Virus record (IMG/VR): IMGVR_UViG_3300030103_001804
Coordinates: 1 to 57,821 of that record
Source: a virus
Direction: 5' to 3' (one strand)
DNA length: 57,821 bases
Below the pieces are notes generated by a model. It saw nothing but the letters and a program-made list of their open reading frames with translations, ran no database searches and had not been told where the DNA came from. The number at the start of each line of letters is the position of its first letter. The stretch's first letter is position 1. Both the position numbers and the translations under genes were made by a program. Below are positions 1 to 57,821 of the stretch, piece after piece.

Positions 1-331
1 CAAAGCTAGTTATAAACTTAGGCTTTGGCGCGGTGTAGCCTTGTGCGCTAGGCTGCCAGTATTTAGCTGGCAAGCCACCATTAACCATAACCCAAAGCAT
101 TTGCCCAAAGTGGCCTATTGCCTTGCCGTTGGCTGGCTGCATAGCACGCCAAAAGTTAGCACCGCCCATAAGCGCATTGGCTTGCACGGCGGCTGGCAAT
201 AGCTGCACGTTAATATTGCCAATGCCATTAGCAGTAATAAACGCCTTAATAGCAAGGCTGCAATAAACGCCTTGGCTACCCAAATTTGCGGCTGTAAAAG
301 CTGCCGCTGCTTGTGTGTTTGTGTTACCCAT
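1..331 (-). CDS. Asp/Glu-free protein of the GA/TC-free segment (partial)
   Basis: Open from an ATG at 331 to the window edge; 110 residues are visible and the C-terminus lies outside. The reading begins MGNTNTQAAAAF and includes GGANFWRAMQP and LPAKYWQPSAQGY. There is no Asp or Glu, Ser uses only AGC, Ile only ATT/ATA, and the only charged residues are a few Lys and one Arg, so it is strongly basic. The leader AAAAAGGGG lies 7 nt before the ATG, a Shine-Dalgarno in which G replaces A and could pair by G:U wobble. The coding frame is clear but I do not recognise the family; it may be an amino-acid-restricted version of a known protein. Two hairpins lie just upstream. Confidence 0.75.
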   Translation of the reverse strand, partial: MGNTNTQAAAAFTAANLGSQGVYCSLAIKAFITANGIGNINVQLLPAAVQANALMGGANFWRAMQPANGKAIGHFGQMLWVMVNGGLPAKYWQPSAQGYTAPKPKFITSF

Positions 332-417
332 TGGTAAACCCCTTTTTAGTTAATGCCGCCGCCCTATGCGGTGGCTACACCTATTTTATGCCATAGGTGG
401 CATATGCTTGTAAACCC
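332..417 (-). promoter_or_regulatory. Two consecutive hairpins in a GA-free leader
   Basis: Upstream of the gene starting at 331 are two inverted repeats. One has arms 355-362 and 368-375 (8 bp with one G:T wobble). The other has arms 378-384 and 393-399 (7 bp, perfect). The copy of GGGGTTTAC at 410-418 (minus strand) touches their left flank. The leader then runs into AAAAAGGGG and the ATG at 331. This could be a structured 5' leader or a terminator-like element after 418-486; no T-run follows the stems. Confidence 0.4.
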
Positions 418-486
418 CTAAAAGCACATTGCTACAAAAATAATTACAAGCACACCTAGCAACCCCATTAGCATTTGTGCCGCCAT
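418..486 (-). CDS. Possible 22-aa membrane micropeptide overlapping the upstream gene
   Basis: An ATG at 486 opens a 22-codon frame ending in TAG at 418-420. The product is almost a single hydrophobic helix (core GLLGVLVIIFVAMCF). An alternative start ATG overlaps the TAA of the upstream gene as TAATG, giving 16 residues and suggesting coupled translation. The frame has no Asp or Glu, as the segment dictates. Its small size makes chance possible. Confidence 0.3.
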   Translation of the reverse strand: MAAQMLMGLLGVLVIIFVAMCF

Positions 487-656
487 GCGCTTAAATAGCC
501 AAAGCCAAACAGCACCGCACCATAAACAAGCATAAAAGCATTTATGTAATGGTGGCTAAAAATAGGTGGCAGTACAAATGCGCCAGTGGCGGCAAACATT
601 AAGGTAACGCCAGCCACCATGCATAAGGTGCAAAAAAACATATATAAATAAACCAT
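468..656 (-). CDS. Small membrane protein lacking Asp/Glu
   Basis: 62 residues, starting MVYLYMFFCT. Two hydrophobic segments (about 3-30 and 38-57) flank an FSHHYIN turn, and the tail is AWRHKC, predicting a two-pass inner-membrane protein with a positive C-terminus. I chose the ATG at 656 rather than 668 because GGGG lies 6 nt upstream and the same GGGGTTTAC leader precedes the next gene. No Asp or Glu codon occurs; the stop is TAA. Family unknown; a holin-like or other membrane role would be a guess. Confidence 0.6.
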   Translation of the reverse strand: MVYLYMFFCTLCMVAGVTLMFAATGAFVLPPIFSHHYINAFMLVYGAVLFGFGYLSAWRHKC

Positions 657-668
657 AGTAAACCCCAT

Positions 669-837
669 TGGTTAGTTGCGTTATGTAAATAGCTAAAAGC
701 TAAACCACGCTCCGGCAAGTGGCAATGTGGTCAAACGCATCGCTGCCAGATTTGTTTATGATATGATATTATATAAGGGATCATCCTAATGATCGGATGG
801 ATAGACAGTCAATCCATCCATCCATCCGTCAGGGTAC
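669..837. other. Right boundary of the GA/TC-free segment and intergenic spacer
   Basis: 669-710 is still GA/TC-free; 711-750 contains only isolated TC/GA; beyond that composition is normal. The stretch 751-777 is AT-rich. At 795-819 an inverted repeat has GGATGGAT and ATCCATCC arms around a 9-nt loop, and the right arm continues as further ATCC repeats to 827. No attachment-site duplication can be recognised because only one boundary is visible. No gene seen. Confidence 0.5.
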
Positions 838-1675: not shown

Positions 1676-2134
1676 TTACTTGGCTGGGATAACGAACAGC
1701 TCAACGAAAGCATTGCCCCATGTCGCCTTGGCTGATGGGGACTGTCCACCATTAAGCGCGTCCAACAAAGCATGGAAGCGACGTGCTTTAATGGCGCGAT
1801 GCGCGTTGTCCACGTCTGTTAAGGTGATCGGGTCCATGTGGGAGTTGATCAACTGCCAGACTACCATGCCGCGGAGCGACATTTTGGGCGACCCGTCAGC
1901 GTCCCATAAGGTTTTCTTCTTTTCCCAAGGGAAGGGGAGCTCCGTAGCAGGGTCAACCTCAACAATGGTGCGGACGCCTACATTGTTTGGATTGCCACCA
2001 GCATGCTGCTGGACAAACGTAAAGATGTCCTCGGCAGTAACGCCTTGGGACTTGCGATCCTCAGGCAACTCATTGATACCACGAAAAACGACTTCTGCCT
2101 CTTGGGACTTTTTAACTACAGCTGATTTAGCCAT
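1676..2134 (-). CDS. Phage protein of unknown function
   Basis: 152 residues, starting MAKSAVVKKS with GTAGAAAGGAGC as ribosome-binding site. It is soluble and mixed alpha/beta, with a Trp/Pro patch (LPFPWEKKKTLWD) and a helical C-terminal half. It is a single-gene unit with its own terminator. Not recognised; its position downstream of the terminase small subunit and nuclease would suit packaging or DNA metabolism, but this is context only. Confidence 0.6.
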   Translation of the reverse strand: MAKSAVVKKSQEAEVVFRGINELPEDRKSQGVTAEDIFTFVQQHAGGNPNNVGVRTIVEVDPATELPFPWEKKKTLWDADGSPKMSLRGMVVWQLINSHMDPITLTDVDNAHRAIKARRFHALLDALNGGQSPSAKATWGNAFVELFVIPAK

Positions 2135-2283
2135 AACGATGCTCCTTTCTACGAGCAGTACCGCGACACCATTGCCGCTTTGGTAAGTATAGAGTAGCGC
2201 AGTTGATGGCTGATGTAAACACTTATTTTATCATTTTGAGTAAAAAAGATGCCGCCATATCTGAGGCCAGATGTCTTTTGATC

Positions 2284-2709
2284 TCAGGAATCATCGCTCT
2301 TCATCAGTCGTCCGAGTACTCTTGCCCATCCATCATGGTCAATCGGCCATTCCATCCGATCATCGTAGACTGGATCTCCATCCATCAATCTCTGGCTCAG
2401 GTGCCGACCATCCAAAAATAATAGCTGGCCTGATGAAGGATGATGAACCAAGTTCCAAACGCATCCACCAACAGAGGTTCTTGAGGTCTGCCATGCTATT
2501 TGATGAGGACGCCACTGTGGGAACTTCTTGTCAGACTTTGTCGTAAGAACCTTTAGCTCAACCCAGAAGTCCTTGCCGTTCAAGCAACCGTTGACGTCAG
2601 GCACTCCTGGACTAGCCCACGACTCCATCCTAGTCCAATGCACCCCGAGGGACTTGGTTCCATCCCGTAGTGATTTCCAAAATTTAGACTCAGGTTTCTT
2701 TGTTGCCAT
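2284..2709 (-). CDS. PD-(D/E)xK family nuclease
   Basis: 141 residues. The core SPGVPDVNGCL, then DFWVELKVL (residues about 35-55), gives the PD...ExK arrangement of metal-dependent nucleases of the VRR-NUC/Holliday-resolvase type. The HQIAWQ helix and GGCVWNLVHH strand that follow are usual in phage members. It could act in recombination or processing of replicating DNA. The start overlaps the end of the small terminase gene by 20 nt. Confidence 0.7.
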   Translation of the reverse strand: MATKKPESKFWKSLRDGTKSLGVHWTRMESWASPGVPDVNGCLNGKDFWVELKVLTTKSDKKFPQWRPHQIAWQTSRTSVGGCVWNLVHHPSSGQLLFLDGRHLSQRLMDGDPVYDDRMEWPIDHDGWARVLGRLMKSDDS

Positions 2710-3244
2710 CAGGTAGAACCTCCAAGTTATCCATGTCTATGACAGGGCTGGTTGCTTCTACCAATGCTGGGAACTCTTGCTGGATACGCTTAATTTCATT
2801 GACCACTTCTTCTTTACTCATTTGGTCAATCTTACCATGCAGTATTTCTTTGCGATCAATGTACAGCCCAGCCGCCTGACCTCTTGACTTTTCAGCTGTG
2901 ACCGCCGCCGCATAGTTTCCATTCTGCAAAGCCACATCACGGAGTTGTGCTAACTTCTGCACATGGCTTTCAAAAGTTACCTCATACTTCTGCTGTAACT
3001 CTTTTTTGATTTCACGCACCCTGTCCAAAACCTGTGGATAGCTACGTCCGTTAAGCATATGACTTGCAATAGAGTGTGCATTAGATTCAGCGTACCCTGC
3101 CCTGATCGCTGCTTCCGTTTGCGTAACCTCTTCTGTAGCATAAATCATTGCAAACTTTTCCTGCATGGGTGTCAGCCCTTTTTCCACCCGAGGGTTAGCT
3201 ACAATGTCCAAACTATTTTTATGAGTGACTTTTGCCTTTGCCAT
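2690..3244 (-). CDS. terS: Terminase small subunit
   Basis: 184 residues. After a basic N-terminus comes LTPMQEKFAMIYA followed by TQTEAAIRAGYAES (about 24-53), the helix-turn-helix signature of the Terminase_2 family that binds the packaging site. A coiled oligomerisation region follows, with an acidic C-terminus. Length suits the family. It lies over 50 kb from the large subunit at the right end of the window, so the two are adjacent only if the genome is circular, and even then with the left genes between them. Confidence 0.8.
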   Translation of the reverse strand: MAKAKVTHKNSLDIVANPRVEKGLTPMQEKFAMIYATEEVTQTEAAIRAGYAESNAHSIASHMLNGRSYPQVLDRVREIKKELQQKYEVTFESHVQKLAQLRDVALQNGNYAAAVTAEKSRGQAAGLYIDRKEILHGKIDQMSKEEVVNEIKRIQQEFPALVEATSPVIDMDNLEVLPDGNKET

Positions 3245-11778: not shown

Positions 11779-12169
11779 TTTGTCTCATGTATACTTCAGC
11801 TTCCACTAGAAACAGATAACGCCGTAAGTCTCTTATATCATCCAATACGCCTTCCTCACGATCATCATAAGTTATAGCTTGAAATATATCATAACCCTGC
11901 TCGGTTACTTGTTTTTCAAGCCGATCCCATTTACGAGCCAGCATCATAAATGCACCGACACCGCCACGTTGTTTCCAACTATCACCGTAAGATTGCTCAG
12001 CTTCTTCTAACTTTACATGATCTATTACGGTGAGCTTACCAACTTGTTTTATAATAGGGCTTTGTTCTTTTGGTTGTGGTTCTTTATCTTTTACCATTAC
12101 ATCATATTCCTTCCAATCCAGCTCACGCATACGGCGAATCATGTATTGTTCGTAACTTTCTCGTCCCAT
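11756..12169 (-). CDS. Protein with a YGDSW motif, possible nucleotide-modification-associated or MazG-like domain
   Basis: 137 residues. YGDSWKQRGGVGAFMMLARK followed by DDIRDLRRYLFLVEAEVY resembles small helical families annotated as nucleotide modification associated domain or dNTP pyrophosphohydrolase-like. Its place beside the thymidylate-synthase-family gene and polymerase supports nucleotide metabolism. The family assignment is from motif memory and is not certain. Confidence 0.45.
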   Translation of the reverse strand: MGRESYEQYMIRRMRELDWKEYDVMVKDKEPQPKEQSPIIKQVGKLTVIDHVKLEEAEQSYGDSWKQRGGVGAFMMLARKWDRLEKQVTEQGYDIFQAITYDDREEGVLDDIRDLRRYLFLVEAEVYMRQNGKRKAR

Positions 12170-13167
12170 TTTTCTCTCCTACGCTCAAGCCATTCCCAAG
12201 TGGCTAAATGCCAATCGTCAGGCTTTATGTCTGCACAATGGTCAAAAGCTAAAGCTAATTCTTTAGCTTTCCATGCTTGCCAGACTTTGTGCATAGGTTG
12301 TGCCAAATCAGAAAAAGTGGAGTTAATATATGGTCTTGGCCTTTCAGGGTCTTCAATAAACCAACTAAGCTCTTCATCAAATGATTCTATATTATTTACA
12401 AGAGCATCTGGCCTGATCATGCGCGTATTATAGGCTTCATAATCAGGCAGCATACCATCTAGCTTTTTTAATACTTCTGTATAAGCATGAAGATTATTAC
12501 TAAACTGTGTGTATATACCAACACTCGCGCCGATACGTGAGGCTATATACTCTTGAAGAATGGACATATGGACAGCATTAGCTCCTAATGCACCCCAGAT
12601 CATATCATTACTGCGGTTGCATACTGTCATATCAAGTATATTGTCGCGCACATTAAAATAAATATGAGTATTACAAGGATGGTCTTTACAGCTATTACTC
12701 ATTCGTAAATCACCTTCGGCATCCCACATTGCAAGCACCGCTCGTCTATCATTTGTATGCGTCATCAATCTATGAACGATTACATCAATTTGGTCACGAT
12801 GGAAGTAATTACGCCAACGATATCCATAAGCTCCCTGTAATACTTTACCATCATCACTATACTCACTCATCCGTGCATTATAACGCTGTATCCATGCAAG
12901 GTCATTACGCCCTGCTAACATCCACAGGCTTTCCATAAAATGAAATATAGGATTAGCATCACGCTCAGGATAAAACAGTACACGCTCGCGTGGGCTGTTG
13001 TAGACAATGGCACATGGCTCACGGAACTCAATCGCTTTACCATTACGCGTCTCTACTTCTACACCATCTGCTTCTAATGCTTGCTTCACAACATACAGTG
13101 CTTCGCTTACATTTGTGACTGTGAAAGTATGTACACCCCTCATAGGTGCTTTACCAAATAATGCCAT
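12139..13167 (-). CDS. Thymidylate synthase superfamily enzyme (TS or deoxypyrimidine hydroxymethylase)
   Basis: 342 residues. QGAYGYRWRNY (about 113), catalytic Cys within CKDHPCNTHIYF, and CNRSNDMIWGALGANAVHMS followed by LQEYIASRIG are the TS-fold motifs. Ordinary TS has PFN before the helix, where an Asn binds the uracil. Here the equivalent stretch reads AVH, a variant typical of a phage branch that may hydroxymethylate rather than methylate dUMP or dCMP. Neighbouring radical SAM, glycosyltransferase-like and HMUDK-like genes favour 5-hydroxymethylpyrimidine synthesis. The precise reaction is undecided. Confidence 0.8.
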   Translation of the reverse strand: MALFGKAPMRGVHTFTVTNVSEALYVVKQALEADGVEVETRNGKAIEFREPCAIVYNSPRERVLFYPERDANPIFHFMESLWMLAGRNDLAWIQRYNARMSEYSDDGKVLQGAYGYRWRNYFHRDQIDVIVHRLMTHTNDRRAVLAMWDAEGDLRMSNSCKDHPCNTHIYFNVRDNILDMTVCNRSNDMIWGALGANAVHMSILQEYIASRIGASVGIYTQFSNNLHAYTEVLKKLDGMLPDYEAYNTRMIRPDALVNNIESFDEELSWFIEDPERPRPYINSTFSDLAQPMHKVWQAWKAKELALAFDHCADIKPDDWHLATWEWLERRREKWDEKVTNNT

Positions 13168-13250: not shown

Positions 13251-14270
13251 CTAGCTGTCTGAGTAGCCCTTAATAAAGTCATAATGTTTCTTTACTCTTT
13301 TGGTGTATGTGCCTCCAGCCAATGCTTCTTTAATTGCAGTATTTGTTTCCTCCGTAGGCTCGGGTAACGTCTTACGTCCCATACGGTCAGGTAACAATCC
13401 ATTACGAAGAGTGGTATTGTCACAGCCATTGCAAGGACCGAATTTACGGTCTCCGTTATACAACTTTTGCCGCGCTGCATGAAAAGCCTTCCCCTGCCAT
13501 ACTTCTTCTATAGGTGTATCAATTACATTGCCACACTTGTACCATCCTACCCAATCATTACAGCATATAGCAACATTACCATCCCAGCGTATAGACATCT
13601 CACGGAAAGGTTTTGCACAACGCTTACCATCTTGTTCATGGTTTAAAGGGAAAGAGTTACCAGCGTGGTTACTGACTTGTGCGTGGGTTCCGCTAGTAGC
13701 GAGCGTAAGATCAAGTCCAACAACGATATGATGTTCTGTAACCTTTCTTCGTCGGTGGGGGTTGGCGTCACGTTCAGCGGGATATTCAAATACGGGATAT
13801 GGACCATTGTATCTCTCCTTTATTTTGTCCACTATTTTTATGCGATCATAATTGTCAAGGAATAAAACATTTAGCCCTGCTTCCATCAACATATTTACAC
13901 TTTTCTGTGTATCTCTTAATAAACCACCACCATTACTGGTCATCATCAAAGGTGTTTTAGGTAACTCCTGTCGGAACAGCCGTATCATATCAATAAAGAA
14001 GGGGTGCATGGTTGGCTCACCATGCATGGCAAACTCTAATCGTGGGTTCCATTTAGCTTCTTTAATGCGGCTGCAGATAGCCCTAGCCCTTTCTATTGTT
14101 AAATATCTATAAGGGGCAGAAGCCTTACCATGAATATTCAGTGGACCGTGGGCTTTATTATCACGTATCGCTTGTATACCGCAAAAAGAACAAGCAAGGT
14201 TACATCCCTCAGTTAATTCTATTTGTATAGAATTAGGTGGGTCTTGATAATGGTTAGATACAGTTGCCAT
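13251..14270 (-). CDS. Radical SAM protein (SPASM-like)
   Basis: 339 residues from the ATG at 14270, preceded by GAAAGG. C23-x3-C27-x2-C30 in GCNLACSFCGIQ binds the catalytic 4Fe-4S cluster; AMHGEPTMHPFF and LMMTSNGGGLL are SAM-binding elements. The C-terminal region (KRCAKPF, AICCNDWVGWYKCGN, FGPCNGCDNT) carries further Cys typical of auxiliary clusters. The substrate cannot be read. Its position beside DNA-modification genes suggests work on a nucleobase or its precursor. Confidence 0.85.
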   Translation of the reverse strand: MATVSNHYQDPPNSIQIELTEGCNLACSFCGIQAIRDNKAHGPLNIHGKASAPYRYLTIERARAICSRIKEAKWNPRLEFAMHGEPTMHPFFIDMIRLFRQELPKTPLMMTSNGGGLLRDTQKSVNMLMEAGLNVLFLDNYDRIKIVDKIKERYNGPYPVFEYPAERDANPHRRRKVTEHHIVVGLDLTLATSGTHAQVSNHAGNSFPLNHEQDGKRCAKPFREMSIRWDGNVAICCNDWVGWYKCGNVIDTPIEEVWQGKAFHAARQKLYNGDRKFGPCNGCDNTTLRNGLLPDRMGRKTLPEPTEETNTAIKEALAGGTYTKRVKKHYDFIKGYSDS

Positions 14271-15039
14271 CTTTAGCAGCCTTTCGCCATTGTACGCGAA
14301 CATCCCAACGTGTTTTCATACCCTCCCAACCTGTTTTAGTTTCTTTCTGTACAGCTTTTACATAATCAGGAAACTTTTCAGCAAGGGCAAGGCTCGCACG
14401 TTCTTGTAACTCTGCATTGCGGTATGAACTACAGCCACCAGCAGCACCTGAAGCACCACGCTGATCCCATGTCCAATCAACAATTACAGCATTACCATGA
14501 CCATGCTTAAATAACTCAAGTGTAACGTAATAATCTTCCATAAGCTCCATAGTATCATAACGTATGCCCAACCCATGAATAATTTCAGGACGTATGGCGT
14601 GAACAGCATTTTGTCGCATACCATACTTAACTGTATCAGGGAAGTGCTTATCATTCATTTGCCTTGGGCTAAGTCCCACATGAGTAAAGTTATTCAACAA
14701 CCACTCCATGCGCTCCCATAACTCATGCATCTCTTCTTGATTTGTTTTTCTTAAGTTGGGAGCCAGCCCATGTATGCGGCGACCAAATATAAGATCATCA
14801 TCCAGAATAATAATTTTATCATGCTTCTGCTCCACGGCATGTTCTAATATGAACTGCCTTACATTATTGATACCTTTTAAATCACCACGATTTAAACAAT
14901 ACCGACCCTGTCTTGTATGCCAGTTTACTTCATCTTGTGGGCATACAAGAACAGCATGCTCTCTGCCCTCCGGACCAATGCTTTGCCAAGTAACTTGGTT
15001 ATTCATCCTGCCCCTAGTTGGAATATATATTGGTATCAT
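14254..15039 (-). CDS. GT-A-type glycosyltransferase, TAGT-like
   Basis: 261 residues. The N-terminus MIPIYIPTRGRMNNQVTW, the GINNVRQFILEHA helix and KIIILDDDLIFGRRI with its acidic metal-binding triad resemble the TET-associated glycosyltransferase (TAGT) family. Iyer and Aravind linked TAGT to glycosylation of hydroxymethylated bases in phages. The MELMEDYYVTLELFKHG stretch is a second typical motif. The start overlaps the TGA of the previous gene (ATGA). The specific acceptor is inferred only from neighbours. Confidence 0.7.
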   Translation of the reverse strand: MIPIYIPTRGRMNNQVTWQSIGPEGREHAVLVCPQDEVNWHTRQGRYCLNRGDLKGINNVRQFILEHAVEQKHDKIIILDDDLIFGRRIHGLAPNLRKTNQEEMHELWERMEWLLNNFTHVGLSPRQMNDKHFPDTVKYGMRQNAVHAIRPEIIHGLGIRYDTMELMEDYYVTLELFKHGHGNAVIVDWTWDQRGASGAAGGCSSYRNAELQERASLALAEKFPDYVKAVQKETKTGWEGMKTRWDVRVQWRKAAKDGNCI

Positions 15040-15337: not shown

Positions 15338-16234
15338 TTACGCCACCGTCCCAATCGGAGCCTCCAGCACTGAACTCTGTAGTCCATTATACTTACTACG
15401 CGGAGTGCCTTGACCAAGCCTAACGCGCTCATATTTATCCCACTCGCATAAGCTATGTTCAATACAGCGCATATCCACCGCCAAAGTCGGGATGTGTTTG
15501 CCAAGATAACGGTGTGAATCTTCGAGTAAATCTTGCATCTCCCTATTGCTTTGATAAGCACCTAATGCTTTTGTGAGCGGCCTATCGTGGATCCTGTTGA
15601 GGCCACGCTTTGCTCCCGGACCAGCGTTTGCCCATTTGTATTTGTCTTCGGCTTTGGCAAGGACTGGTGTGTAGTTGAGGTCGGTAACAACCTCGTATGA
15701 CATAAAACCTCCCCCTCCCCATCCTTTATATGCCGCCAACGCTTTGTGTACTTCTTCCAACGACTGTGTTTCGGTGGCAATCTGCGCCAACGCTTCTTTG
15801 TTTTCCCATATTGGCGAAAGGAAATGGTCAACAACTACCTCCGATTTAGGTGCTTTGAGTCCTTGGTTAGTGATTATATATGCACCAGTAAAAGTCCGTA
15901 AACCCTGCTTCAACCTTTCTTCAATCAAAGACTTAGTATGCTCAGGATTAAACTCTTCTACCCAACCATGCGCTTCAGCAAACTCACTAGTTCCAACCAT
16001 ACGAAACATACAACAGTTAAATATCATCTCACCATGTGGGCGGTTATCATTTGGCTTTGTCCAGTTTTGCCGCATCCAAACAGTTACCCTATCATTCTCA
16101 CGGAAAGGATTTGTGAATTTATATTGTTGTAAGATAGTGTCTTCTGTCCAAGGGGCAGGAAGCCCCTTGGCTCTTTTTTGATAAATGGCATGACGCTCAT
16201 TAATCCAGTAGCAGAACCTTTCTATGTTCTCCAT
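15338..16234 (-). CDS. HMUDK helical / aGPT-Pplase-like domain protein
   Basis: 298 residues. The N-terminal region FCYWINERHAIYQKRAKG, then LPAPWTEDTILQQYKF, then PFRENDRVTVWMRQNW matches, from memory, the helical domain associated with 5-hydroxymethyluracil DNA kinases and alpha-glutamyl/putrescinyl-thymine pyrophosphorylases. These act in phage thymine hypermodification. GYKGW- and GGGG-rich motif AAYKGWGGGGFMSYE and the DMRCIEHSLCEWDKYERVR motif near the end are also typical. No P-loop kinase domain is present. Confidence that it belongs to this broader family is good; the reaction is less clear. Confidence 0.65.
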   Translation of the reverse strand: MENIERFCYWINERHAIYQKRAKGLPAPWTEDTILQQYKFTNPFRENDRVTVWMRQNWTKPNDNRPHGEMIFNCCMFRMVGTSEFAEAHGWVEEFNPEHTKSLIEERLKQGLRTFTGAYIITNQGLKAPKSEVVVDHFLSPIWENKEALAQIATETQSLEEVHKALAAYKGWGGGGFMSYEVVTDLNYTPVLAKAEDKYKWANAGPGAKRGLNRIHDRPLTKALGAYQSNREMQDLLEDSHRYLGKHIPTLAVDMRCIEHSLCEWDKYERVRLGQGTPRSKYNGLQSSVLEAPIGTVA

Positions 16235-37090: not shown

Positions 37091-39697
37091 CTATCTCGCG
37101 TTCGCAAATTTGAATGGCAAATCTGCAATGGCTAAAAAGATAAATTGATGGGCGGTATTAAAAGATGCAGATGCACGTCTACATTTAAATCCATTACTTA
37201 AAAAATCTATATCGTTATCAGTTCCTTCATCTGCCGTAGTATCTGCCATCAGGTGGTCATTAACAATGTTGTGAACACCCCCTTCTCTAGTACTATCAAA
37301 AATGATCCAAGAACCAGAAGAATCTACGTTTTTGATTATAACGTAAGCAGGTCTAAATCCTGTGTAGACGTAGGTTCCATCATCCGCCCCATTTCCCTTA
37401 TGAGTTCCTACCATACTGTAGCCCTCAACAGAAAAGAATAGGTACATTATATATTTATCACCACTTTCGGTCATAGTGTTAGCAGAGCCGTTAGTGCGAA
37501 ATTTTACGAGTGCATCAGTGTGCGCGGACTTGAACGTGCCATAACCATCACCTTCAGTAGCTGATGCTCCAGAGCCACTAAGATAAATATAATCAGTGCT
37601 AATATCTTTATGCCAACCATGAAACTGGTTGTTGTTAGAATTGGTATCCCTGTCTTTTAACCAGATTAATTCTGGTGTAGTCCCCAACCCATGAGCAATA
37701 TCCATCTCACTTTGACCAACACCAGTGTATCCTATAATACCAAATCCTGCTGCTTGATTTACTGACCCTGCACTATCAACATTACCTACACTTGTTGAAG
37801 ATGCGTCATTGCTAAACGATGTACCAGCTTTCCAACACCACCCGACATATGTCTGACCGCTTGCGTTGCCGCCTATTGATCCGCTTGTGTGGGTAAAACC
37901 ATCACTGCCAAATGCTGATAATGAACCCGTATCTTCAGCATTTGGAGAGTCTGGGTAAATTCTTTTGTTTACTCCTCTAACACTGTCATATGATTCGTGA
38001 TTATAGGTATTAGTTCTACTTTTCACCCAAACCCAATCAGGTTGGAAACCAAGCCCTGTAATGGCATTTGTTCCACTGTTGCCACTGTAAAGCACTGTGC
38101 CAAAAACGTCAGACGCTAAAGTGCTTTGTCCGGGACCGATTGTTACGTCTGGAAAATTGGAAGTGCAAAGAGCCTTAAACCCTGTTGGCACGGCATAATA
38201 AAACTCACCATTACCATCACCATCTGAAGCAGCCGCAGACCCACTTGTTTTATTTCCAGCAAAACTATCATCTTGACCAAAATTAAAAACAAATGAGGAT
38301 GTGCCATAACCCATTAACCACGGAAACTTATGATTAGCATCAGGTGCTTCAGATGCAGTGTATGTAGAGTTTGCATTTGCGCCTGTTGACGGGTTACTTG
38401 TGCCTGATCCTGAATTTATGTATTCACCATTAATGTGCCAATAAAGTTTTCTATTATCAAAATCTGCGGCAACACCAATTATATCTCCTGTTGTTGGAGC
38501 ATCTCCAGCACTATGTGCGCCACTGTGTGCAAACTGTTGTGTGGCTATACCATTACTTGTGTCTCCCCAATCAGAGATATAAAGATTGCTACTTGTAAAA
38601 TAACCAAAACCTGTGAATGAGGCTTGTTCTGCATCAGCCGCGCCAGCATTAGTTGGGAACTCAACATTTCTAAGTCCATTCATGCCAGCAACCATCCAAC
38701 CGATCATCCAAGATGGATACCCAGCCTCAGTAATATAACACTCATAATAGTATTTTCCTGTCGTAACACCCTGAGTTGCTATTGCTTGAGAGTAATTACT
38801 GGCTGTATTTCTAACTTTTAAAGCACCTTCAGTAAAAGCCCCAAAAATAGACTGACCCTTGCCAACAGTGACTAAATTATTCATCGTTGGGAAATTATTA
38901 GTCGGGCTATCTTTCACAACATCGGTTGCGGCTAAATTTGTAACTGTATCAAACGAGTGAGAGTTTCCTGATGAATCAGCACCAATAGAAGAACTATCAG
39001 AAAAAGTAAGGTGATAGCCCGTTGTACCAAAGCTACCAGAATATTCTTTTGGAATCCACACCCCGTCCTTTGTCTCCCCGAATTCAGTCGGTGCAAGCTG
39101 TGCATTATCAACATTGTAAATGTCGGCTAAGTAGCCATCCATGTAATCAAATCCCGGAGTAAAACCTATTAAGGGTTCATTTCCAGATGTTGAGTCTTGA
39201 AACAAAGTGTCATAATCTTCGCTAGGGTATGAAGCTGTATCAAAATCTGTTAACTGAGTTCCATTTACATACATTTTCACCCTATTGGCTGCGGTGCTTT
39301 GCTCAGTGTCAACAGCGACTACAAAATGATACCAAGAAGACACATCACGAAATTTAGCCGTAGTAATCACATCACTCGTATAACTTGGGTGTCTGTAATC
39401 TTTATAAGTGAGCCGTTGGTTATGAAAACCTATCATAGCACTTGGATAAGAAGCTGAACCGCCAGCACCAATAACAACATCATAAAGTTCTGTGGCTTTG
39501 GCAAATTTAATCCAAAAAGAAAAGGTAAACTTTCTTCTATTACCGTCACTTGAAACGGATGAATCTATCAATCTAGGGCTGTCAGCTTTGTTCATACGCA
39601 AAGACTGACCTATAGTTGTACTATAAAACGAACCTAGCGCACCTCCAGAATCGCCTGACCCACCAAGACCTGAACCTACTCCATGTAATAGACTCAT
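37091..39697 (-). CDS. Large receptor-binding/tail-fibre protein with LamG-like and SPRY-like domains
   Basis: 868 residues. Residues about 50-230 show a concanavalin/LamG-like pattern (FTFSFWIKFAKATELYD, SSWYHFVVAVDT, MYVNGTQLTDF). About 300-490 resemble a SPRY domain (YYECYITEAGYPSWMIGW, IIGVAADFDNRKLYWHINGE). The second half repeats WVKSRTN/WLKDRDTN motifs and has a Gly/Ser-rich tail. It is probably the host-recognition fibre or spike. Confidence 0.65.
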   Translation of the reverse strand: MSLLHGVGSGLGGSGDSGGALGSFYSTTIGQSLRMNKADSPRLIDSSVSSDGNRRKFTFSFWIKFAKATELYDVVIGAGGSASYPSAMIGFHNQRLTYKDYRHPSYTSDVITTAKFRDVSSWYHFVVAVDTEQSTAANRVKMYVNGTQLTDFDTASYPSEDYDTLFQDSTSGNEPLIGFTPGFDYMDGYLADIYNVDNAQLAPTEFGETKDGVWIPKEYSGSFGTTGYHLTFSDSSSIGADSSGNSHSFDTVTNLAATDVVKDSPTNNFPTMNNLVTVGKGQSIFGAFTEGALKVRNTASNYSQAIATQGVTTGKYYYECYITEAGYPSWMIGWMVAGMNGLRNVEFPTNAGAADAEQASFTGFGYFTSSNLYISDWGDTSNGIATQQFAHSGAHSAGDAPTTGDIIGVAADFDNRKLYWHINGEYINSGSGTSNPSTGANANSTYTASEAPDANHKFPWLMGYGTSSFVFNFGQDDSFAGNKTSGSAAASDGDGNGEFYYAVPTGFKALCTSNFPDVTIGPGQSTLASDVFGTVLYSGNSGTNAITGLGFQPDWVWVKSRTNTYNHESYDSVRGVNKRIYPDSPNAEDTGSLSAFGSDGFTHTSGSIGGNASGQTYVGWCWKAGTSFSNDASSTSVGNVDSAGSVNQAAGFGIIGYTGVGQSEMDIAHGLGTTPELIWLKDRDTNSNNNQFHGWHKDISTDYIYLSGSGASATEGDGYGTFKSAHTDALVKFRTNGSANTMTESGDKYIMYLFFSVEGYSMVGTHKGNGADDGTYVYTGFRPAYVIIKNVDSSGSWIIFDSTREGGVHNIVNDHLMADTTADEGTDNDIDFLSNGFKCRRASASFNTAHQFIFLAIADLPFKFANAR

Positions 39698-57236: not shown

Positions 57237-57348
57237 TTGACTTACCTCCCTGTATCAAACGCAATTTAGGCCGATCTACTTTTTTTACCTCATCAAGAAC
57301 TTCTTGTATCAGCTGCTTTAACTCTTCTACCCTAGCCGTAATAGGCAT
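57211..57348 (-). CDS. Small coiled protein between terminase and portal
   Basis: About 45 residues if the ATG at 57348 is used; another ATG at 57372 would give 53. Helical and charged (VEELKQLIQEVLDEVKKVDR) with a Gly/Lys-rich tail that overlaps the portal start. The start is uncertain because no clear ribosome-binding site is seen. Confidence 0.45.
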   Translation of the reverse strand: MPITARVEELKQLIQEVLDEVKKVDRPKLRLIQGGKSSGSKKESL

Positions 57349-57821
57349 TACTTCTTGGTGGTGAATCGACATAATCGTTATAATCCTCTGGGTGCTGTAT
57401 AAACCCACCTTCGCGGAAACGTCGGAGAGCCTGTGTTACTGTATCAACAAAATCATCATTTTCGCCAACCGGAAATGATGCACACTCCTCTATCACTTCC
57501 TCTGCCCATCTAGTATCTGGAGCCCATACTAAACCACTTTCTAGGATTGGCGCAATGGAGTTCACTCGAGTAAATTTATCATTACCTCTGCTTGGTGAAT
57601 AATTCTGCACTGGAATACCCATACTACGCAGTTCTTGCGTCAGCGGCATACCACTGGCTTTTGCTTCAATAATCACACATTCTGGCTCCCAATAATCATA
57701 TTCTTCTTTTGCTATACGTTTTAACTCTGGAAAATCCCATCGGCCACGCCGCGCATCACATAGAATAATGTTTGGTGGTTCTCCCTCCACAGGATAAAAT
57801 ACACCCCATGTAGTTATCGCA
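57332..57821 (-). CDS. terL: Terminase large subunit, C-terminal nuclease domain (partial)
   Basis: The open frame runs through the right edge; 162 residues are visible and the ATPase part is outside. TTWGVFYPVEGEPP and NIILCDARRGRWDFPELKRI begin the RNase-H-like nuclease; VIIEAKASGMPLTQELRSMG, NDKFTRVNSIAPILESGLVW and FPVGENDDFVDTVTQALRRF are the family signatures with the catalytic acids (Glu in IIEAK, Asp in DDFVD). It cuts concatemers during packaging. Confidence 0.85.
   Translation of the reverse strand, partial: AITTWGVFYPVEGEPPNIILCDARRGRWDFPELKRIAKEEYDYWEPECVIIEAKASGMPLTQELRSMGIPVQNYSPSRGNDKFTRVNSIAPILESGLVWAPDTRWAEEVIEECASFPVGENDDFVDTVTQALRRFREGGFIQHPEDYNDYVDSPPRSNAYYG

Follow-up and report, generated by a model that had tools for sequence, protein, structure and literature searches.

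The DNA analysed here (the window, 57,821 bp, G000:C1:1-57821) belongs to an IMG/VR record of an uncultured phage that is 59,603 bp in full. Between the genes for the small and large terminase subunits lies an island in which the dinucleotides GA and TC do not occur. It holds one copy (A) of a gene of which an ordinary paralog (B) lies about 1 kb away. The features of this part of the window are the following.

1..710, no strand: GA/TC-free island, continuing as record 58945-59603, which overlaps 1-370 (dinucleotide count, end overlap).
2..331, minus strand: open reading frame, the 5' part of the A copy (the acid-free gene of the island); the whole gene (176 aa, record 59034-59564) encodes no Asp or Glu.
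335..345, minus strand: ribosome-binding stretch AAAAAGGGG, free of GA; the paralog has GAAAGGAG.
381..414, minus strand: consensus match to a promoter, TTTACA ... TAAAAT, ahead of the A gene.
468..668, minus strand: 66-aa open reading frame within the upstream section of the island; conservation extends to most, not all, close relatives.
1676..2134, minus strand: ordinary paralog (B copy), 152 aa, with 18 Asp plus Glu and 52 GA/TC (sequence; modelled fold, pLDDT 89.6).
2186..2219, minus strand: consensus match to a promoter, TTTACA-N17-TACTCT, ahead of the B gene.
2690..3244, minus strand: terminase small subunit (PF03592, E = 7e-10).
57332..57820, minus strand: terminase large subunit (terL), C-terminal part; the N-terminal part is at record 57757-58799.

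The terL frame is interrupted in the record by 10 N (record 57832-57841) and forms one open reading frame of about 490 aa in relatives.

Counting dinucleotides over positions 1-710 gives zero GA and zero TC, as an earlier note on this DNA had stated; its expectation of about 89 assumed equal base frequencies and becomes about 72 when the window's actual frequency (5,875 per 57,821 bp) is used. The second-longest GA/TC-free stretch in the window is 65 bp. The right end of the record (58945-59603) is likewise free of both dinucleotides; its final 370 bp are 96% identical to window 1-370, and none of the mismatches introduces a GA or TC. Since the record ends overlap and both are GA/TC-free, the island spans the closure point and measures about 1.0 kb, more than the note had seen. 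Of the two genes placed there by the note, one (2-331) covers the 5' part of the A gene, which crosses the record ends, and the other is the 66-aa frame. The remark that the rest of the window is not depleted is nearly right, apart from a mild genome-wide under-representation (TC/GA odds ratio 0.85). Contigs end in or near the island in several cases (both ends of this record, L005, L009, L013, L020, L027 and L069), possibly reflecting a strain mixture or true genome ends.

In place of the lost TC and GA it is chiefly GC that is enriched (odds ratio 1.6-2.3), rather than TT or AA; the borders of the island are sharp, and the neighbouring sequence and the paralog are full of GA/TC. The last observation disagrees with the note's suggestion of a copying enzyme unable to make GA/TC. 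Removal of the dinucleotide by mutation, for instance through a TC-specific deaminase, could account for the complete loss of one dinucleotide pair, but the replacement by GC, the sharp borders and the untouched paralog make it barely credible.

Each of the pure islands examined holds an open reading frame of one protein family, about 140-225 aa long and in terL orientation. Because the A gene is spelled without GA or TC its product has no acidic amino acids, and A proteins from pure islands contain neither Asp nor Glu; the stop codons are TAA or TAG. Upstream of the A frames, GGGGTTTACA is common, with TATAAT or TAAAAT 16-20 bp further on, the signal being weaker in some lineages; the spacer in the window is 20, which is long for sigma70. 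The ribosome-binding site is AAAGG or AAAAGGGG across lineages, signals that contain GA are avoided, among them TTGACA (the -35 consensus) and GGAGG (the customary form), and in 30 of 32 instances a terminator-type hairpin lies directly 3' of the stop codon, mostly still inside the island. Purifying selection acts on the A gene (dN/dS about 0.1). In the different lineages the island amounts to one monocistronic cassette, usually comprising a sigma70-like promoter, a GA-free ribosome-binding site, the open reading frame and a terminator hairpin.

The B copy is laid out like the A copy and spelled differently, with -10 TACTCT as opposed to TATAAT or TAAAAT, GAAAGGAG as opposed to AAAAGGGG, and 8-19 acidic residues as opposed to none. 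The element TTTACA-N17-TACTCT ahead of B, with TC inside its -10, is conserved in many relatives. Nearly every near-complete genome of the clade has a B copy with 8-19 Asp plus Glu and ordinary GA/TC content; a single member of the A/B family was found in G068 and a few fragments. Neither A nor B has a significant match in Pfam or PHROGs, no relatives of the A protein were found among bacterial and archaeal genomes, and a fold search with the B model against the PDB and BFVD gave no match; the predicted A model has lower confidence (72). A and B represent an undescribed protein family.

The paralogy of A and B, with exemption limited to A, would suit a self-exemption in which the A/B protein or a partner binds, silences or nicks DNA containing GA/TC and the A gene, lacking the target, escapes; a protein with an unmatched modelled fold could bind DNA. 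However, nearly every genome retains B, which has no such exemption, and several lineages have lost the avoidance while both proteins persist, which renders this explanation unlikely.

The island accompanies eleven relatives of its gene in IMG/VR. One contig (L015) stops inside it; the other ten (independent contigs L005-L014) hold it whole, and their maximum run without GA/TC measures 909-1026 bp. A wider survey covered 80 IMG/VR terminase relatives, in 35 of which at least one 600-bp window contains three GA/TC or fewer (roughly 50-80 is normal), while about ten more show partial depletion. The low windows mostly lie no more than 1.2 kb upstream of terL, the islands of L065 and L067 being 3-5 kb from it. 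When ten close relatives are aligned, their 129-307 substitutions prove to have created no GA or TC, compared with 38-81 expected at random. Both dinucleotides are missing from coding and noncoding parts, including the part upstream of the promoter, and the extension of the GA/TC-free zone beyond the transcribed part argues for selection on DNA. The note's proposals of strong selection on the dinucleotide and of a protected locus are supported by these results, the selection acting on double-stranded DNA, whereas a mobile element or satellite is at odds with the constant place by terL in most relatives and the low dN/dS. A chimeric assembly or artificial sequence is ruled out by the presence of the island in dozens of independent contigs from many metagenomes. 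The avoidance is complete and conserved, and the island fits one gene cassette.

A longer hidden motif was considered and rejected: residual TC in partly eroded islands has no fixed context, and GTCA is slightly over-represented. No other avoided motif was found in the avoidance-free relatives, and comparison of genomes with and without the island gave no single gene that separates them.

Phages avoid restriction sites, and some toxin-resistant mRNAs avoid a motif, so that a nuclease or restriction system recognizing GA/TC, or an RNase acting on mRNA, has to be weighed. The likeness to restriction-site avoidance lies in selection against a short motif, but that avoidance is genome-wide and partial, whereas the present one is local, complete and bounded by a gene. 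About 5,900 GA/TC are left in the rest of the genome, and selection by an RNase would be confined to one strand, whereas both dinucleotides are missing, also from the untranscribed upstream part; avoidance of this kind is very improbable.

The position between the terminase genes could instead indicate a packaging (pac) or replication-origin site that needs unmodified DNA for the terminase or initiator, and DNA modification can affect terminase cutting, as for P1 pac and Dam. A pac site should nevertheless not require an entire gene complete with its own promoter and terminator, and the gene is retained in lineages without avoidance. Two islands (L065 and L067) lie away from terL, and the GC-skew extremes do not coincide consistently with the island. 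A pac or origin function is distinctly unlikely to be the cause.

A second group of genes in the window, which adjoin polA, is related to DNA modification.

12139..13167, minus strand: thymidylate-synthase-family (ThyA) protein, likely a dUMP hydroxymethylase (PF00303, E = 2.5e-20; 42% identity to the M6 homolog).
13251..14303, minus strand: radical SAM/SPASM protein, part of the modification module.
14254..15039, minus strand: TET-associated glycosyltransferase (TAGT; PF20691).
15338..16234, minus strand: HMUDK_hel, a homolog of M6 gp55 (PF18723, E = 5e-52).

The P-loop 5hmdU DNA kinase (PF18748) was not found in this genome, in which a divergent kinase could be missed; a Walker A scan (G....GK[ST]) returned a UvrD-like helicase only. 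As this kinase was not found, the phages are not classed as M6-type. A GA-motif 7-deazaguanine was rejected as a candidate, there being no queuosine-type gene among the module proteins scanned. The interval between the ThyA-family gene and HMUDK_hel (window 13251-15039) is swapped among the relatives compared (G024, G046, G059 and G067), with radical SAM and TAGT genes in one subclade, glycosyltransferase-like proteins elsewhere and nothing in G074 and G070.

HMUDK_hel and a ThyA-like gene are present in 24 of 24 near-complete A/B-bearing genomes compared. Neither was detected in four IMG relatives (three being fragments of 31-39 kb) or in the isolates HTVC023P, HTVC027P, 023Pt_psg01 and DSL-LC04 (50 kb of each examined), and the A/B family and the island are likewise absent there. 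The genome-wide TC/GA odds ratio is 0.73-0.94 with HMUDK_hel and, without it, 0.98-1.08 in the four IMG relatives and 0.92-1.00 in the four isolates, the ranges touching at 023Pt_psg01 (0.92). The TC odds ratio correlates weakly with island purity (Spearman 0.41, p = 0.054).

The HTVC023P-type pelagiphages resemble these phages in terL (57-65% identical), in a related polA (found in the four isolates) and in gene order, and a subset of their clades carries ThyA and aG/PT-PPlase1 (PMC9599517). ThyA-family and HMUDK_hel homologs beside polA are shared with M6, ViI and phiW-14, in which hypermodified thymidine occurs in TG/TC contexts (PMC6449724). M6 and Sonora differ in having the PF18748 kinase, and a search of both found no member of the A/B family; the module described here has glycosyltransferases, in some phages radical SAM and TAGT genes. 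M6 and ViI, unlike these phages, lack a motif-free island. Reduced in vitro transcription of DNA containing phosphorylated 5hmdU has been reported, according to a citation in PMC7653180.

The avoidance at the level of double-stranded DNA, the match of the island to a cassette, the ordinary paralog and the co-occurrence with modification genes favour an explanation to which a probability of about 0.5 is assigned, namely hypermodification of the genome at TC, with an island spelled so as to stay unmodified and hence transcribable from modified DNA. The phage's own hypermodification system would alter the genome at TC, and the island, lacking TC on both strands, would escape modification. Modification would hinder transcription elsewhere, and the unmodified A gene would be transcribed, probably by the host RNA polymerase, from otherwise hypermodified DNA, perhaps directly after injection. 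If TC is the modification site, the phage would for this reason keep the whole A transcription unit free of TC and GA. Against this explanation, terminators are also common after B copies (28 of 42), no comparable island is present in M6, Sonora, ViI or Knedl, the search for the M6 kinase was negative, and the TC odds ratio follows island purity only loosely.

Knedl (L281) merits separate comparison. GA-motif dPreQ0 phages of the Queuovirinae, of which it is an example, are said to have a GA-specific base modification, reportedly described by Olsen and co-workers in 2023. Its genome shares the general under-representation of GA/TC (odds ratio 0.81) but has guanine chemistry (Que genes), and its longest GA/TC-free stretches (171-181 bp; positions 39477 and 42901) encode Pro/Gln/Ala-rich low-complexity linkers. 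No precedent for such a dinucleotide-free gene region was found in the literature, where a mention in Lee 2018, Lee 2022 or Olsen 2023 is possible.

In a terL tree, all A/B-bearing phages, which are marine and for the most part have base-modification genes, fall in one supported clade (98/90), within which pure, partial and absent avoidance are interleaved, the pure state requiring at least ten changes. Both paralogs are kept in four phages in which avoidance is absent (G046, G059, G022 and L040), the first three of which also retain the HMUDK_hel and ThyA-like genes. An ancestral pure state would mean that the constraint was released on several occasions. These released lineages are the main difficulty for any explanation; they may have changed the modification site or the way of transcription. 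As all avoiders belong to one clade, the tie to the modification genes may amount to a single evolutionary event.

Hypermodification at TC would, more tentatively, make the base modification a gene-level switch with a sequence-encoded exemption, in which respelling without the motif bars Asp and Glu from the A protein and the ordinary paralog stays modifiable. If this is true, a whole gene sacrifices two amino acids and one dinucleotide to a constraint at the DNA level. The target dinucleotide of an uncharacterized base modification would be indicated from sequence alone, and the first transcription of hypermodified phage DNA would become a directly testable question.
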